From contig NZ_BJKN01000001.1 of NCBI RefSeq assembly GCF_006538365.1, forward strand, positions 1,173,583 to 1,237,582: DNA of 64,000 nucleotides, in the 5' to 3' direction. This document shows, in pieces, positions 14,143-21,749 of the stretch. Each line of letters opens with the position of its first letter. Position 1 is the first letter of the stretch. The notes below the pieces were generated by a model that searched no databases, had not been told where the DNA came from, and worked only from the letters and a program-made list of their open reading frames with translations. Position numbers and translations under genes: made by a program. The stretch is from Moorella sp. E308F (GTDB lineage Bacteria > Bacillota > DSM-521 > Neomoorellales > Neomoorellaceae).

Positions 14143-15285
14143 TTATTTATTCATCACTGTAAGCAGCCGCACCAGCCGTTCGGCAGCATCGGCCAGGAGG
14201 GTGGCGGCGTTTTCCAGGCAGTATGCTAAAGGTACCGGCCGGGGGACGATGCTCATAAAGCCCTTAATGCCGTGGTCATAGACGGTGCCGGCACCTTCGC
14301 CGATAGAACCTACCAGGGCGACCACCGGGATGCCGTATTTCCCGGCCACCCGGGCAACGCCGGCGGGAACTTTACCAAAGGCCGTCTGGTGGTTGATTTC
14401 TCCTTCGCCGGTGATGACCAGGTCGGCGCCCCTGGCCAGGATGCCGTCGAGATCTACGGTTTCTATAACCAGTTCAATACCACGCCGCAAGCCGGCGCCC
14501 AGGAAGGCTACCAGGCCGGCTCCCAGGCCGCCGGCGGCACCGGCTCCGGGCAGTTCCCGGACGTCTTTCCCCAGGTCTCGCTCAATTGTGTCCGCCAGCC
14601 TGGCCAGGGCGGCATCCAGGCGGGGGACCATTTCCGGCGTGGCGCCCTTCTGGGGACCGTAGACCGCCGATGCTCCCCGGGGGCCGCATAAGGGGTTGTC
14701 CACGTCGCAGGCTACCAGGATTTCCGCTTCCTTTACCCGCGGGTCCAGACCCTGGATTTCAATGCGTTCCAGTTCCTCCAGCCCGGCAGCGCCCGGCCCG
14801 ATATCCTGTCCCCTGGCATCGAGAAGTTTCACCCCCAGGGCCTGGGCCATACCGGCGCCGCCGTCATTGGTGGCACTGCCGCCGATGCCCACAATTAACC
14901 GCCGGCAGCCGGCGTCCAGGGCCTGGCGGATGAGCTCACCGGTACCGTAAGTGGTGGTAAACAGGGGGTTACGCTTTTCCCGGGGTACCAGGGGCAGGCC
15001 CGACGCCTGGGCCATTTCCACCACGGCGGTGGTACCATCCCCCAGGATACCCCAGGCGGCCCGAACCGGTTCCCCCAGGGGACCGGTGACGGTGGTGGTG
15101 ATTATCCGGCCGCCGGTTGCGGCTACCAGGGTAGTTGTTAAACCTTCACCGCCGTCGGCCATGGGCACGGTGACGGTTTCTGCCTCCGGGAAAACCCGTT
15201 TGATACCTTCAGCTATAGCCGCCGCAACTGCGGGCGCGTCCAGGCTTTCTTTAAAGGAATCCGGAGCAATGACAATACGCTTCAT
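14143..15285 (-). CDS. glxK: glycerate kinase (GlxK/GarK family)
   Basis: 380 aa, normal for the GK-I/GlxK family, which phosphorylates D-glycerate with ATP to 2-phosphoglycerate. Start MKRIVIAPDSFKESL is the characteristic N-terminus; other signatures are PMADGGEGL, VGIGGSATNDGGAGMAQALG and the C-terminal LVITGEGEINHQTAFGKVP. ATG 15285 follows TGGAGGT on the complement. It is probably the first gene of a three-gene operon running leftwards. An IS element lies about 75 bp upstream of it. Confidence 0.93.
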   Translation of the reverse strand: MKRIVIAPDSFKESLDAPAVAAAIAEGIKRVFPEAETVTVPMADGGEGLTTTLVAATGGRIITTTVTGPLGEPVRAAWGILGDGTTAVVEMAQASGLPLVPREKRNPLFTTTYGTGELIRQALDAGCRRLIVGIGGSATNDGGAGMAQALGVKLLDARGQDIGPGAAGLEELERIEIQGLDPRVKEAEILVACDVDNPLCGPRGASAVYGPQKGATPEMVPRLDAALARLADTIERDLGKDVRELPGAGAAGGLGAGLVAFLGAGLRRGIELVIETVDLDGILARGADLVITGEGEINHQTAFGKVPAGVARVAGKYGIPVVALVGSIGEGAGTVYDHGIKGFMSIVPRPVPLAYCLENAATLLADAAERLVRLLTVMNK

Positions 15286-15366: not shown

Positions 15367-15390
15367 GGCTCTATGTCAATAGTTGTGGGA
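15367..15390. repeat. left inverted repeat of the IS
   Basis: Outer GGCTCTAT and inner TGTGGGA match the right end. The transposase stop codon lies inside this repeat. Confidence 0.8.
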
Positions 15391-16615
15391 TTAAATTTTG
15401 AGGGCAACATCCCAGGAAAATTTTCTTGATGAAATGATTACGATTCCTAAAACCAAAACTTAATCGTTTCAGCATTTTGCTTAAAGTATTCTTGCCTTCT
15501 ATATAACCATTGGTGTACCGGCGGCCTTGCTGGGTGTATCTAACCAGGTTTAATATTTCTGACCTCCAGAACTTAATAGTACGAGCCCATACCCGTCCCT
15601 CTACATTTTCAGCGCATTCTGCATTTATAAGCCAACGGCTTAAGGCAATTTCTGCCTCTTCAACCCGGTCCATCTTTATGATTTGTCTTAAATCTTCTTT
15701 TAGCTGGTATAGTTCATAGAGGGACGGGTATTTATTCTTAATTTCTTCTAGCTGCTGTTGTTGTCTGGAAGTAAGTTTTTCTTTAGCCTTGAGCAAGGGT
15801 AGGCGAGGTATATTCTCCTTGCCTGCTTCTTGCTCTATCTTGCGTGCTTCATTTAAGCGACGGTTGGCATCCTGAATTACATGGAAAGGGTCTACTATTA
15901 TCCTGGCTGAAGGAAAGATTGCTTTTATTAACTTGCGCCAGGAGTCTTTCATGTCAATTACTACTGCTTCTACTTTAACCCCGGCTTTTTTGAGCCCCTC
16001 CAGGTAAGCCTTTATAGTTGCTTTCCTGTCATCACCCAAAATCGTCAAAGGCCTCTTATCCGGTTCCAGGCGCCCTACTACGCATACATAATCATTCCCG
16101 CTAAAGGACAGTTCATCTAAGGTTAAGACTATGGGCTCTTGAGTATCATCTGCTGGAAGACCGGACTGGATATACTTGTCTAGTAATCTTATAACCCTAT
16201 TAGGAGTAAGGTGTAATATTCGGGCTGCATAGGTAAAGCTCATCCTCTGGGCATAATACACTACTGTCTGCACTCCTAGTTTTGTAAATCTGGCCCAGGG
16301 GATGGTATTCGGAGGACGAAGGGTAAAAGTCTTATGACAATGGTAACACTTATACCGTACAGGAACCCAGGATAAAAAAATCCATCTCCCGTATAAAAAA
16401 GCGTGACGAATTTTCCTTTCTTGGGGCTTCCGGTTCTTCTTTAAAATGCCGTGCTTATGTAATTTGCCTTTGTTACATGCAGGGCATAATGCTGGCGGCT
16501 CTAGCGTCACCCTTAACACAATATCTTTACGTTCCTGCCGTTCTCCTAAAATGGACTGGAGTATTTTATCAAAATTCTCTTGTCCCTTGAGGGTGATCGT
16601 GCTATTCTTATTCAT
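15371..16615 (-). CDS. tnp: ISL3-family transposase
   Basis: 414 aa, apparently intact. The N-terminal zinc-ribbon has CPACNKGKLHKHG plus YKCYHCHKTF, then a helix-turn-helix (YAARILHLTPNRVIRLLDKY) and a DDE domain: VLTLDELSF (first Asp), VVIDMKDSWRKLI and IIVDPFHVIQDANRRLN (second Asp), and a late Glu in YTNGYIEGKNTLSKMLKRLS. It cuts and pastes its own element. ATG 16615 follows AGGAAAGGAG on the complement. The stop falls within the terminal repeat, as is common for compact IS. Confidence 0.93.
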   Translation of the reverse strand: MNKNSTITLKGQENFDKILQSILGERQERKDIVLRVTLEPPALCPACNKGKLHKHGILKKNRKPQERKIRHAFLYGRWIFLSWVPVRYKCYHCHKTFTLRPPNTIPWARFTKLGVQTVVYYAQRMSFTYAARILHLTPNRVIRLLDKYIQSGLPADDTQEPIVLTLDELSFSGNDYVCVVGRLEPDKRPLTILGDDRKATIKAYLEGLKKAGVKVEAVVIDMKDSWRKLIKAIFPSARIIVDPFHVIQDANRRLNEARKIEQEAGKENIPRLPLLKAKEKLTSRQQQQLEEIKNKYPSLYELYQLKEDLRQIIKMDRVEEAEIALSRWLINAECAENVEGRVWARTIKFWRSEILNLVRYTQQGRRYTNGYIEGKNTLSKMLKRLSFGFRNRNHFIKKIFLGCCPQNLIPQLLT

Positions 16616-16772: not shown

Positions 16773-16801
16773 TTGACACTTAAAAAAAGCATATTTATAA
16801 T
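16773..16801 (+). promoter_or_regulatory. consensus promoter of the M-box transport operon
   Basis: TTGACA at 16773-16778 and TATAAT at 16796-16801 with exactly 17 bp between. It begins immediately after the IS target duplication, so the insertion removed or displaced everything upstream of the -35. Confidence 0.88.
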
Positions 16802-16832
16802 GAATGTAACGGCGAAAATTTGTTATTTCACA

Positions 16833-16990
16833 ATCCTTCGTTAGGTGAGGCTTCTGCATAGACAGACGCCACTGCCCGGAAACGTCGAAAGACGCCAATG
16901 GGTCAACAGGTATTACCGGCTTAAGGTTTTACCTAATGTGGCTGAGAGTTTTCTCTAGCTATGCACGTGCCAAAGCTCAACGAGTGGGGG
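16833..16990 (+). promoter_or_regulatory. M-box (ykoK) magnesium riboswitch
   Basis: The order of conserved blocks matches the ykoK leader: CTTCGTTAGGTGAGGC, GCCACTGCCC, ACGTCGAAAGACGCCAATGG, GTCAACAGG, TTAAGGT, ACCTAATGTGGCTG, GCTATGCAC and GTGCCAAAGCTCAACGAG. M-boxes fold when Mg2+ is plentiful and shut off downstream genes, typically mgtE, corA or P-type Mg2+ ATPases (established). Here the downstream genes are an ABC permease and ATPase, which is unusual. Confidence 0.92.
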
Positions 16991-17016
16991 TTAATAGGGC
17001 TATTGATGAACTCTAT

Positions 17017-17045
17017 GTCTTCCCACTTGGGAAGACTATTTTATT
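17017..17045 (+). terminator. terminator hairpin of the M-box expression platform
   Basis: GTCTTCCC at 17017-17024 pairs with GGGAAGAC at 17029-17036, followed by TATTTTATT. It lies 27 bp after the aptamer and 20 bp before the permease ribosome site, as expected for transcription attenuation. Confidence 0.75.
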
Positions 17046-17063
17046 GGTTGGGAGGTGAACCCC

Positions 17064-18782
17064 GTGGCGCGGGCAACGAACCTGGCTTTAACTATGATTA
17101 TGGCAGCCCTTTTAATCGCCTTTGCCTACTTTGCCTACCAGGGCCACCAAGCTGTTGCCCTGGCAGGAGGGACAACAGTTGTTACCAGCATAGGCATCCT
17201 GCCTTATTACGCCTTCCGTTCCTTTTTAAGGATGCTGGGCGCATATATCCTTTCTTTTATCTTTACTCTTACTTATGGCTATAAAGCCGGGACAGACCCA
17301 CGAGCCGAGCGCTGGCTCATTCCCATCCTGGATATCCTCCAGTCAGTGCCCATCCTGGGGTTCTTCCCTGCCGCTGTTTATTTTTTTGTCTCCCTTTTCC
17401 AGGGAAGCCTCCTGGGGGTGGAGCTGGCTTCCATCTTTCTTATTTTTACCAGCCAGGCCTGGAACATGACCTTCGGTTTTTATGAATCATTGACGACAAT
17501 TCCCCGGGATCTTAAAGAGGCCGCTGATGCCTACCGGTTGACGGGTTGGCGCCGTTTCCAGAAACTATACTTTCCCGCCGGTATTCCTAAACTGGTCTAT
17601 AATAGCATTCTATCCTGGAGCGGGGGCTGGTATTTTCTTATTGCCGCTGAAATTATTGCTATTGGTCCCGCTAGGTACTCTCTACCGGGTCTGGGTAGTT
17701 ACCTCATCCGGACTACGGAAGAGGGGGATTTGGGGTTGACGATAGCAGGACTTTTAACCCTGATAACTTTAATAACTCTGATGAATATTTTTATCTGGCG
17801 TCCCCTCTCCATCTGGGCCGAAAATTTTAAGTATGAATTTGACAGTGGCGGCGCAAGATTAACCAGGGGATGGGGTTACCGCCTCTGGCACGAAGCCCCC
17901 TTTTTCCGGGAATTCAGGCGTGCGCTTATATCATTGGGAGCAGGCTTAAGTATTATAATAGAAAATATGTACCAAAAGATTTATACCTGGAATGGTAAGG
18001 GGCTTAATTATCAGCGTTATCTCACCTTGATTTGGCACTTTATTACTTGGTTAATGATTTTACTGCTGGGCGTGGCCCTATTCCGCGGTCTGGTGGCCCT
18101 GGGTACCCTGTTCATGATGCCCTGGCAGCCTGAGGTCTTCAGCATCCCCAAGGCCATTTTCTTTTCTTTTTTACGTTTACTGGCAGCATACATTCTCTCC
18201 CTTGCTTGGACAGTCCCGGCGGCCATCTGGATTGGCCATAATGAGCGGGTTTATGAAATCATGACGCCTGTTTTTGAAGTTCTAGCTTCAGTACCGGCAA
18301 CGGCGTTATTTCCTATTATTGTTTTTATCCTGGTAGGGATCACAGGAGGTATGAACTTGGCAGCTATTATCCTCGTATTGACAGGTATGCAATGGTACCT
18401 CCTTTTTAACCTTATTGCCGGGGTAAAAAGCATTCCCAAGGATTTAAAAGAGGCAGCAGCCGCTTTTGGTCTCCAGGGAACCAGGTATCTACGCCGGGTA
18501 GTTTTACCAGCTTTGGTACCCTCCCTCATAACAGGCAGTATCACATCATGGGGGGGCGGCTGGAATGCCCTGATAGTTGCTGAATATGTTGTTTATGCCG
18601 GTCAGATTTACACTGCTTTTGGTATTGGATCCTTGTTGGATACTGCCATTTATGGGAGCGGCAGCTTCCAAATAATCTGGTCCAGTCTCATAGCCATGGT
18701 AGCAACTATCGTCTTTCTCAACCGCTTTTTCTGGCGGCGCCTGTACGAAATAGCTGTTGCCAGGTTTACTATAGGAGATTAA
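17064..18782 (+). CDS. fused two-domain ABC transporter permease (nitrate/sulfonate-type fold)
   Basis: 572 aa. Two BPD_transp_1 permease domains in one chain, each with ~6 membrane segments and an EAA coupling motif: DLKEAADAYRLTGWRRFQ with SWSGGWYFLIAAEI near residues 150-210, and DLKEAAAAFGLQGTRYLRR with SWGGGWNALIVAEY near 465-510. GTG 17064 is chosen because GGGAGGTGA stands 5 bp before it; a GTG at 17055 lies inside that site. The fold resembles SsuC/TauC/NrtB permeases, yet the gene is led by an M-box and has no substrate-binding protein gene nearby. The substrate may be a divalent cation or its chelate, but that is inference. Confidence 0.9.
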   Translation: MARATNLALTMIMAALLIAFAYFAYQGHQAVALAGGTTVVTSIGILPYYAFRSFLRMLGAYILSFIFTLTYGYKAGTDPRAERWLIPILDILQSVPILGFFPAAVYFFVSLFQGSLLGVELASIFLIFTSQAWNMTFGFYESLTTIPRDLKEAADAYRLTGWRRFQKLYFPAGIPKLVYNSILSWSGGWYFLIAAEIIAIGPARYSLPGLGSYLIRTTEEGDLGLTIAGLLTLITLITLMNIFIWRPLSIWAENFKYEFDSGGARLTRGWGYRLWHEAPFFREFRRALISLGAGLSIIIENMYQKIYTWNGKGLNYQRYLTLIWHFITWLMILLLGVALFRGLVALGTLFMMPWQPEVFSIPKAIFFSFLRLLAAYILSLAWTVPAAIWIGHNERVYEIMTPVFEVLASVPATALFPIIVFILVGITGGMNLAAIILVLTGMQWYLLFNLIAGVKSIPKDLKEAAAAFGLQGTRYLRRVVLPALVPSLITGSITSWGGGWNALIVAEYVVYAGQIYTAFGIGSLLDTAIYGSGSFQIIWSSLIAMVATIVFLNRFFWRRLYEIAVARFTIGD

Positions 18783-18796
18783 CGGGGGTGGTATGG

Positions 18797-19546
18797 TTGG
18801 CTTTACTCGAAGTAAACCATGTTTATAAAACCTATACTGACGCCAACCGGTCCCTCACAGTTCTTAATGATATCTCTCTTAACGTCGCTAAGGGTGAATT
18901 TGTCTGTCTGGTAGGCCCGTCCGGTTCCGGCAAGAGTACTCTGCTGAGGATGGTTGTTGGTCTGGACCGTCCATCTCGGGGACAAATATTTTACCGGGGA
19001 AAACAGGTAAGCGGTGTTATGGATAAGATGGCTATTGTTTTTCAGTCCTTTGCCCTGCTGCCATGGTTAACAGTGATGGAGAATGTGGCCCTGGGTTTGG
19101 AGGCTAAAAATATCCCGCGGGCTGAAAGGGAGAGAATAGCCAATAAATATATTCAAAAAGTAGGGCTGGACGGATTTGAGGATGCTTACCCGCGGGAACT
19201 TTCCCGGGGCATGAAACAGAGGGTGGGTATTGCCCGGGCCCTGACCATGGAACCGGAACTCCTCTGCATGGATGAACCCTTTTCCGCCCTGGATGCCTTT
19301 ACGGCCCAGAACCTGCGGGAGGAGCTTTTAGACCTGTGGCTGGATGTAACGCTTCCCGTAAAGTCGGTCCTCATGGTGACCCATGGCATTGAGGAAGCTG
19401 TCTTCATGGCCGACCGGGTGATTGTGCTGTCCAAAAGGCCGGCCCGGATACTGGCCGATGTCCGTATAGACCTGCCTCGCCCGCGTAACATGAAGGATGA
19501 AGCCTTCGCCCGGGTTACGGATAAAATATACTCGCTTTTGTTCTAA
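18797..19546 (+). CDS. ABC transporter ATP-binding protein, partner of the fused permease
   Basis: 249 aa. Walker A GPSGSGKST, Q-loop VFQSFALLPWLTV, signature LSRGMKQRVGIARAL, Walker B LLCMDEPFSALD and switch histidine VTHGIEEA are all intact, so it should hydrolyse ATP to drive the permease. TTG 18797 is preferred: GGGGGTGG ends 5 bp before it, and the alternative GTG at 18788 lies inside that purine run. It starts 14 bp after the permease stop and ends without the C-terminal ~140-residue extension that related ATPases carry; such a domain is encoded separately at 21267. Confidence 0.92.
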   Translation: MALLEVNHVYKTYTDANRSLTVLNDISLNVAKGEFVCLVGPSGSGKSTLLRMVVGLDRPSRGQIFYRGKQVSGVMDKMAIVFQSFALLPWLTVMENVALGLEAKNIPRAERERIANKYIQKVGLDGFEDAYPRELSRGMKQRVGIARALTMEPELLCMDEPFSALDAFTAQNLREELLDLWLDVTLPVKSVLMVTHGIEEAVFMADRVIVLSKRPARILADVRIDLPRPRNMKDEAFARVTDKIYSLLF

Positions 19547-19554
19547 GAAGAAAC

Positions 19555-19584
19555 AAGGGGACGGGTAACCGCCCCCTTTTAACT
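19555..19584 (+). terminator. terminator of the M-box operon
   Basis: AAGGGGACGG pairs with CCGCCCCCTT around a short loop (one mismatch or bulge), followed by TTAACTTT. It lies 8 bp after the ATPase stop, between convergent genes. Confidence 0.55.
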
Positions 19585-19623: not shown

Positions 19624-20976
19624 TTACCTTTGCTCCAGGGGAATATACTTTCTTTTACCAATCACATTTTTGTAGGCCGGTCTGATAATCCTGCCTCCAC
19701 TTACCAGTTCTTCCAGCAGGTGGGCACACCAGCCGGAGATCCTGGCTATGGCAAAAATTGGGGTATAAAGCTCCACGGGAATATTTAACATCTTGTACAC
19801 AAAACCCGAGTAGAAGTCCACATTGGGAGCGATAATCTTTTCATTTCCTTTTTTAGAGGCAAATAATTCGGGTCCAACTTTTTCTATGGTCAGGTAGAGG
19901 CCGAATTCATCTTCCATGTTTTTCTCTTTAGCGAGTTCAGCAGCCTTGGCTTTTAATAATACAGCCCGGGGATCGGACAGGGTGTAAACGGCATGGCCGA
20001 GGCCATAGATTAATCCTTTTTTGTCAAAGGCTTCCTTGTTGAGAATTTTGGTCAGGTAATATTTAACTTCTTCTTCATCGGCCCAGTCTTTTACATTGTT
20101 CTTTATATCATCCATCATTTCCATAACTTTAATATTGGCGCCGCCGTGCTTAGGCCCCTTTAGTGAACCGACCGCGGCCGCAATAACGGAGTATATATCT
20201 GTCCCTGTCGAGGAAACAACATGGACGGTAAAGGTTGAGTTGTTCCCTCCGCCGTGCTCAGCATGGAGTACCAGCGCAAGGTCCAGCAATTCGGCTTCCA
20301 GACGGCTGTACTGGTTGTTAGGCCTGATCATGTATAGGAAATTTTCGGCAGTGCTCAGCTCTTTTTGCGGTAGGTGAATATACAAACTTTGATTTCCATG
20401 ATAATGGGCTTTAGCCTGGTAACCATAAGCCACCATGATGGGGAAGCGGGCAATCAGCTCAATACTCTGCCTGACGACGTTTTTGATACTTAAATCATCC
20501 GGGTTTTTATCATAGGAATAAGATGCTAAAACGCTCCTCGCTAATTTATTCATAATATCATTACTAGGGGCTTTTAAAATCATATCTTCAACAAATCCAT
20601 CAGGGAGGCTGCGGTTTTCTGCCAGGAGATTGCTAAAATTAACCAGGTCCTGACGGTTAGGCAGTTCTCCGAAGAGAAGGAGATAAGAAACTTCTTCAAA
20701 ACCAAAGCGTCCTTCCGCCTGGAAATTTGTGACAATATCCCAGATGTCAATTCCCCGGTAGAGCAACCGTCCCTGATCGGGAATCCTTTCGCCTTCATCT
20801 AGAATGTAACCGTGGACTTCCCCGATTTCCGTAAGCCCTACCAGCACGCCGGTGCCATCGCTGTTGCGCAAGCCCCGTTTTACATTGTATTTTTCATATA
20901 AAGTAGGCTCGATGTAATTATTTTTTTCAGCCAGTGCAGCAAGTCGTTCCAGGTAGCTCTTGTCTTCTATCTGCAC
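19624..20976 (-). CDS. gltA: citrate synthase
   Basis: 450 aa. Type-Si fold citrate synthase, condensing acetyl-CoA and oxaloacetate. Catalytic regions are visible: LHAEHGGGNNSTFTVHVVSS, GPKHGGANIKVMEMM and YGLGHAVYTLSDPRA; the last holds the second active-site histidine. The N-terminal extension (YIEPTLYEKYNVKRGLRN) is typical of long clostridial forms; 2-methylcitrate synthase activity cannot be excluded. GTG 20976 follows AAAGGATG. It is monocistronic, convergent with the ABC transporter. In an acetogen it would feed glutamate synthesis through an incomplete TCA path (inference). Confidence 0.93.
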   Translation of the reverse strand: MQIEDKSYLERLAALAEKNNYIEPTLYEKYNVKRGLRNSDGTGVLVGLTEIGEVHGYILDEGERIPDQGRLLYRGIDIWDIVTNFQAEGRFGFEEVSYLLLFGELPNRQDLVNFSNLLAENRSLPDGFVEDMILKAPSNDIMNKLARSVLASYSYDKNPDDLSIKNVVRQSIELIARFPIMVAYGYQAKAHYHGNQSLYIHLPQKELSTAENFLYMIRPNNQYSRLEAELLDLALVLHAEHGGGNNSTFTVHVVSSTGTDIYSVIAAAVGSLKGPKHGGANIKVMEMMDDIKNNVKDWADEEEVKYYLTKILNKEAFDKKGLIYGLGHAVYTLSDPRAVLLKAKAAELAKEKNMEDEFGLYLTIEKVGPELFASKKGNEKIIAPNVDFYSGFVYKMLNIPVELYTPIFAIARISGWCAHLLEELVSGGRIIRPAYKNVIGKRKYIPLEQR

Positions 20977-21266: not shown

Positions 21267-21749
21267 GTGGACGCCGGGCCTTTACCCCAGGTAGGTATAG
21301 GGATGGTCATCGGCCTGCTCGAAATGCTGGAGGATGTCCGGGGAAGAGAAGATATCTTTAAGCTGGCCGGCAGTCTTTCGATGGAACTGGATGATATCGG
21401 GCCGGTCATAGAAGCGGCTAAGGTGCTGGGCTTTATTGAAACTACCAACGGTGATATTACCTTGACCGGGCTGGGTTCCCAGCTACTAAATGCCGGCATA
21501 AATAAGCGTAAAGACATAGTTGCCGGCCGGCTGCAGCAGCTGCCGGTCTTTAAAGAGGTCCTGGAGCTAATTAACTCCAGGCGTGGACGGCAGGTGCGGC
21601 GGGAGCAGGTTATCAGCCGTTTTGCCCGCAGGATGTCTGATGAGGATGCTGAACTCCTGTTTAAAACCCTTGTGGACTGGGGACGGTATGCCGGGATTAT
21701 CGGTTATGATACTAAAGGTGAAGTTTTATATTTGGATGAGGAAGAATAA
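21267..21749 (+). CDS. free-standing ABC-ATPase-associated C-terminal domain
   Basis: 160 aa, no ATPase core. The whole protein looks like the AAA-associated domain (PF09821-like) usually fused to the end of nitrate/sulfonate-type ABC ATPases: GMVIGLLEMLEDVRGREDIF, DDIGPVIEAAKVLGFIE, DITLTGLGSQLL, then LVDWGRYAGIIGYD and GEVLYLDEEE. It probably regulates or senses for an ABC ATPase in trans, plausibly the M-box transporter ATPase 1.7 kb upstream, which lacks this domain. GTG 21267 has GGGGG about 11 bp upstream. The family name is from memory. Confidence 0.75.
   Translation: MDAGPLPQVGIGMVIGLLEMLEDVRGREDIFKLAGSLSMELDDIGPVIEAAKVLGFIETTNGDITLTGLGSQLLNAGINKRKDIVAGRLQQLPVFKEVLELINSRRGRQVRREQVISRFARRMSDEDAELLFKTLVDWGRYAGIIGYDTKGEVLYLDEEE

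Follow-up and report, generated by a model that had tools for sequence, protein, structure and literature searches.

The locus lies in a window of 64,000 nucleotides (the whole stretch of DNA that was analysed) from Moorella sp. E308F. Between a glycerate kinase gene and a citrate synthase gene, a promoter, an M-box riboswitch and a terminator precede genes for a fused ABC-transporter permease and an ATPase, and the gene for a probable third component follows beyond the citrate synthase gene. The features, by window position, are:

14143-15285, minus strand: glycerate kinase gene, left flank marker (synteny)
16773-16801, plus strand: sigma-70 type promoter, TTGACA-17-TATAAT, 12/12 consensus matches
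16830-16995, plus strand: M-box (Mg2+-I / ykoK) riboswitch aptamer (RF00380)
16982-16990, plus strand: 3′ strand of the P1 helix, GAGUGGGGG, doubling as the putative left arm of an antiterminator (complementarity to 17020-17028)
17017-17036, plus strand: intrinsic terminator hairpin followed by a T-rich tail (terminator prediction)
17064-18782, plus strand: fused double permease with two BPD_transp_1 domains, COG4986-like, 572 aa (PF00528 in two stretches)
18788-19546, plus strand: ABC ATPase, 252 aa (ABC_tran, PF00005); alternative start TTG 18797
19555-19578, no strand assigned: candidate terminator separating the ATPase gene from the convergent citrate synthase gene, predicted on the minus strand
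19624-20976, minus strand: citrate synthase gene, right flank marker (PF00285, synteny)
21267-21749, plus strand: AAA_assoc_C protein, 160 aa, probable third component (PF09821, 108.8 bits)

An ISL3-family transposase gene (15371-16615, minus strand) lies between the glycerate kinase gene and the M-box promoter. Sister genomes, G008 and G010 among them, have too short a gap at this place to hold such a gene, and no long terminal inverted repeats were found in the transposase region (15371-16615).

A preliminary description of this DNA had identified the leader as an M-box and had named a covariance-model search as the check that could overturn the assignment. In that search (cmscan), the region matched the full RF00380 model (positions 1-169) with 146.3 bits (gathering score 44, E 3.3e-33), and it is the sole M-box in the 3.06 Mb genome. 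The order proposed at the same time, in which promoter, aptamer and terminator lead into permease and ATPase, was also borne out: the promoter is a perfect consensus, kept in 10 of 10 aligned family members with either ABC genes or corA downstream, and the hairpin at 17017-17036 follows the aptamer. The 5′ arm of this terminator (17020-17028, UUCCCACUU) is computed to be complementary to the P1 strand at 16982-16990. Forced folds of the leader gave −68.0 kcal/mol for the antiterminator and −69.0 kcal/mol for P1 plus terminator, and such near-equal energies fit a switch that metal binding could tip. Since shuffled 5′ arms reached a nine-pair helix in 11% of trials, the nine-pair antiterminator helix alone is weak evidence. 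Conservation at other M-box loci adds to the case for the putative antiterminator: terminators are present in 15 of the 18 other loci examined, and at two loci (L014 and L068) both antiterminator partners have changed in sequence yet are still complementary. Membership of the M-box class is thus indicated by the covariance model and, computationally, by a terminator/antiterminator pair coupled to P1. Members of this class are off at high Mg2+ (PMC4072509, PMC7266159). By analogy, we infer that the leader senses Mg2+ with OFF logic and should switch off when Mg2+ is high.

Riboswitches of other classes were detected as well. The window holds a c-di-AMP riboswitch (RF00379; 34548-34766, plus strand; 95.7 bits, gathering score 38) and a c-di-GMP-I riboswitch (RF01051; 4364-4450, plus strand; 85.5 bits against 35), and a c-di-GMP-II riboswitch (L014, 3933-4016, plus strand) lies near the M-box operon of genome G041, on the opposite strand.

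The permease ORF is open from a GTG at position 17055. Since this codon falls within the Shine-Dalgarno stretch GGGAGGTGAA, the GTG at 17064 is the likelier start, and it yields the 572-residue double permease that had been described. COG4986 is presumably the right name for it, judging from the description of that COG and from usage in PMC5746004. The EAA-type loops are visible in both permease halves. Inspection of the ATPase by eye showed intact Walker A, signature and Walker B motifs, and the ATPases found behind the permease in the family are 82–94% identical. Two importer-type membrane halves (PF00528) and an ABC ATPase (PF00005), as found here, are the parts of a type I ABC importer. 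In agreement with this, both halves of the predicted permease structure (pLDDT 83.7) match type I ABC importer permease folds. The best full-length structural match is the ferric-ion importer permease of Thermus thermophilus (9j4r; Z 24.1, 423 residues), with 12% identity across the aligned part and both halves covered; CmpB and NrtB are the closest solved permeases by sequence and by per-half fold. Against the NCBIfam equivalogs for nitrate, taurine, sulfonate and choline systems, the permease stayed below the cut-offs (best 81.9 bits against 209, for ntrB) and the ATPase under every one listed. A search of the M-box-controlled genes for MgtE and CorA Pfam domains returned only BPD_transp_1 and ABC/AAA domains. 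An argument from pore charge, built on a residue invariant in 56 homologs (D93), was weakened by the presence of E or Q at this position in some ordinary NitT-type permeases and was set aside.

ABC importers of the type I fold normally need a binding protein. As had been claimed, no binding-protein gene lies between the ATPase gene and the next, convergent gene (citrate synthase), and the neighbourhood survey found none recurring beside homologs of the permease system; a binding protein could be encoded elsewhere in the genome. By eye, a T-rich stretch is also present on the plus strand after the candidate terminator that separates the ATPase and citrate synthase genes.

The preliminary description had presented the system as permease and ATPase. 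Both parts stand, and a third conserved part, AAA_assoc_C, had been missed. In Moorella, the citrate synthase gene separates the ATPase gene from that for AAA_assoc_C; where a homologous locus extends far enough, the latter nearly always lies directly behind the former. ATPase ORFs of other lineages are 425–472 aa long and apparently include AAA_assoc_C, an apparent fusion that is judged from ORF length and, for G084, also from tblastn positions. The predicted AAA_assoc_C model (pLDDT 91) is a tandem winged-helix. Its first half matches winged-helix folds (best Z 11.5 over 68 residues), and the full length aligns with the part of FokI and Nt.BspD6I that recognises DNA (Z ∼11, 150–158 residues). 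Foldseek returned no match to the model reaching E 0.001, and a PDB sequence search with the family gave no matches. Because AAA_assoc_C is apparently fused to the ATPase elsewhere, we consider it likelier to act on the ATPase than on DNA.

The gene content of the locus differs among relatives. In most Moorella, the ABC version lies between glycerate kinase and citrate synthase. Two genomes (G008 and G010) have the order gatB, thioesterase, glycerate kinase, M-box, permease, ATPase, citrate synthase, and the window has the same order with the ISL3 transposase gene added. In G007, a genome of the same genus, both flanks are kept and the M-box is followed by corA, with promoter and terminator present. 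G006 has M-box, corA and citrate synthase, so that the right flank is kept and the left side differs, and in another genus of the family (G015) the order is glycerate kinase, M-box, mgtE, with the left flank kept and the contig ending after mgtE. The promoter and terminator are common to the ABC and corA versions. Thus, one control cassette serves three unrelated transporter types, two of which are established Mg2+ carriers. Of all the results, this exchange points most strongly to Mg2+ import: since the ABC transporter replaces ordinary Mg2+-transporter genes at the locus in relatives, it is probably an ATP-driven Mg2+ importer. The earlier suggestion had been of an ABC system for either Mg2+ or a Mg-linked compound; because of the exchange with corA (and with mgtE, where one flank is shared), plain Mg2+ is now favoured and a Mg-linked compound is less likely.

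The pairing of M-box and permease was followed in wider samples. An M-box precedes the permease in 12 of the 12 family genomes that have it, and since the order is the same in every one of them, chance pairing is excluded. Among 101 genomes (the organism's own and those of relatives), 14 carry a full-length permease, with an M-box directly upstream at 14 of 14 loci. These genomes hold 49 M-boxes that score above the cut-off, of which 14 lie before the double permease, 13 before MgtE and 8 before CorA; the remaining 14 fall outside the permease, MgtE and CorA searches. The permease was found at E < 1e-40 in 24 of 398 sampled Bacillota genomes; an M-box lies beside it in 15 and elsewhere in three, and none was found in six, including G302, where the permease is at a contig edge. 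In the three genomes with the M-box away from the permease, it precedes an Nramp-like gene (G175) or an MgtE-N/PRC-like gene (G245), both identified by eye, the third being G377. The double permease of G175 is encoded elsewhere than the Nramp-like gene with its M-box (L175, 1501-3172), and by eye one genome can thus hold both systems with the M-box only on the Nramp-like one. The M-box–permease pairing also occurs in G707, a genome of the actinomycete sample, and most permease homologs in other phyla are without an M-box. At least four changes of the M-box label are required in a tree of 84 permeases; this tree comes from a fast method and has long branches, leaves gains and losses undistinguished and scores contig-edge loci such as L158 as being without an M-box. 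A scan of 43 loci for other riboswitch classes before homologs without an M-box returned only four M-boxes and one tRNA. Around the homologs, the three components of the system, along with ORFs antisense to them, recur broadly; families other than these appear in at most 12 loci, mostly of related genomes, and neighbouring genes were set aside as a clue to the substrate.

As for the other Mg2+ transporters of this genome, no MgtE or Nramp gene was found in it, and there are several P-type ATPases, none above the cut-off of the MgtA model. The single CorA gene is without an M-box. From this repertoire, the ABC system would be a Mg2+-regulated route beside a CorA that is not under M-box control.

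Taken together, the sequence comparisons suggest, with a probability of about 0.7, that the locus is an operon repressed by Mg2+ and encoding an ATP-driven importer of this ion. When cytosolic Mg2+ is sufficient, the M-box would fold, P1 would hold GAGUGGGGG, the hairpin at 17017-17036 would form and transcription would end; at low Mg2+, GAGUGGGGG would instead pair with the 5′ arm of the terminator and the permease-ATPase message would be made. The fused permease would provide the two membrane halves that a type I importer needs and the ATPase its motor, Mg2+ would enter without a dedicated binding protein, and the AAA_assoc_C protein would probably regulate or stabilise the ATPase. The aptamer, promoter, terminator, gene content, conservation and locus exchange are observations of this analysis, beside which we infer Mg2+ as the substrate, import as the direction, the absence of a binding protein and the role of AAA_assoc_C. 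The only M-box of the genome sits before this operon, and the locus exchange, the recurrence in other Bacillota and an actinomycete, the lack of MgtE and Nramp and the importer folds likewise argue for a Mg2+ importer. Arguing against it, NrtB and CmpB, the characterised single permeases closest to this one, are anion transporters, the type I fold usually depends on a binding protein, many homologs are without an M-box, and CorA is already present.

Alternatively, a Mg2+-controlled operon might import something else of use at Mg2+ shortage, such as a Mg2+ chelate (Mg-citrate) or a substitute cation (polyamine). Relatives of the permease fold carry organic as well as inorganic anions, and citrate synthase adjoins the operon. 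However, citrate synthase also adjoins the corA version in G006 and G007, on which ground Mg-citrate uptake was dropped, and no metabolic gene recurs broadly beside the homologs. Considering also that the exchange partners CorA and MgtE carry the bare ion and that the permease falls far short of the curated thresholds of the nitrate, taurine, sulfonate and choline transporter families, we regard this alternative as unlikely. Somewhat less probable again is a broader divalent-metal importer (Mg2+ together with Co2+, Ni2+ or Mn2+), or a system for importing a different metal, placed under Mg2+ control in certain lineages. In line with it, many homologs have no M-box and the best full-length structural match is to a ferric-ion importer permease, but the type I fold that underlies this match says nothing on the metal, and in this bacterial family the M-box pairing is without exception. 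The ISL3 transposase gene just upstream in this genome raises the question of whether the M-box is a leftover or was displaced, without control over the ABC operon. This is highly improbable, given that promoter, aptamer and terminator are kept across the family, including genomes without the intervening transposase, and that the pairing recurs in distant lineages.

Returning to the Mg2+ importer, the same proteins may represent a further class of bacterial uptake systems for Mg2+, namely ABC importers that work without a binding protein and have a tandem winged-helix partner of the ATPase, spread over bacteria and archaea and brought under M-boxes several times independently; we give this wider proposal even odds. 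Because many homologs are without an M-box and at least three Bacillota genomes have theirs elsewhere, members of the family may transport other substrates or a wider range of them. If transport is confirmed, an ABC class would be added to the bacterial Mg2+ importers, a widespread ABC family with no assigned substrate, whose name derives from anion transport, would gain one, and a type I importer would be at hand that may run without a binding protein.

The pairing itself has been reported before: an M-box was noted in 2017 in the 5′ UTR of the ABC operon Bbr_0406-0407 of Bifidobacterium breve UCC2003, with a COG4986 permease, and metal homeostasis was suggested for this operon in one sentence of a transcriptome paper (PMC5746004). 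By its description, that operon resembles the Moorella locus in joining an M-box to a COG4986 ABC system; the report is a passing mention without test, synteny or phylogeny. A literature search, which covered few subscription journals, found no paper testing or generalising an ABC Mg2+ importer under an M-box. The M-box–ABC pairing, once mentioned, is therefore now generalised with stronger comparative support.

M-boxes almost always precede corA, mgtA or mgtE, and the bacterial Mg2+ importers known are CorA, MgtE, the P-type ATPases MgtA and MgtB, and NrmT (PMC4072509). NrmT was found through M-boxes and shown to move Mg2+ (PMC4072509). As at the Moorella locus, the M-box there preceded a transporter type not known for Mg2+, which makes it a precedent for our inference; NrmT differs in being a secondary transporter of the SLC11 family and in having been tested experimentally. 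In genomes related to this one, the genes for MgtE and CorA follow the same promoter and M-box, and their products are channel proteins without sequence relation to ABC transporters. To our knowledge, none of the established Mg2+ importers is of the ABC type. Among ABC systems, NrtBCD and CmpBCD differ from the Moorella system in their separate permease subunits, dedicated binding proteins and anionic substrates (nitrate and bicarbonate). FbpBC of Thermus thermophilus works with a binding protein and imports a metal ion, Fe3+, and its permease chain is matched by the Moorella permease over both halves.
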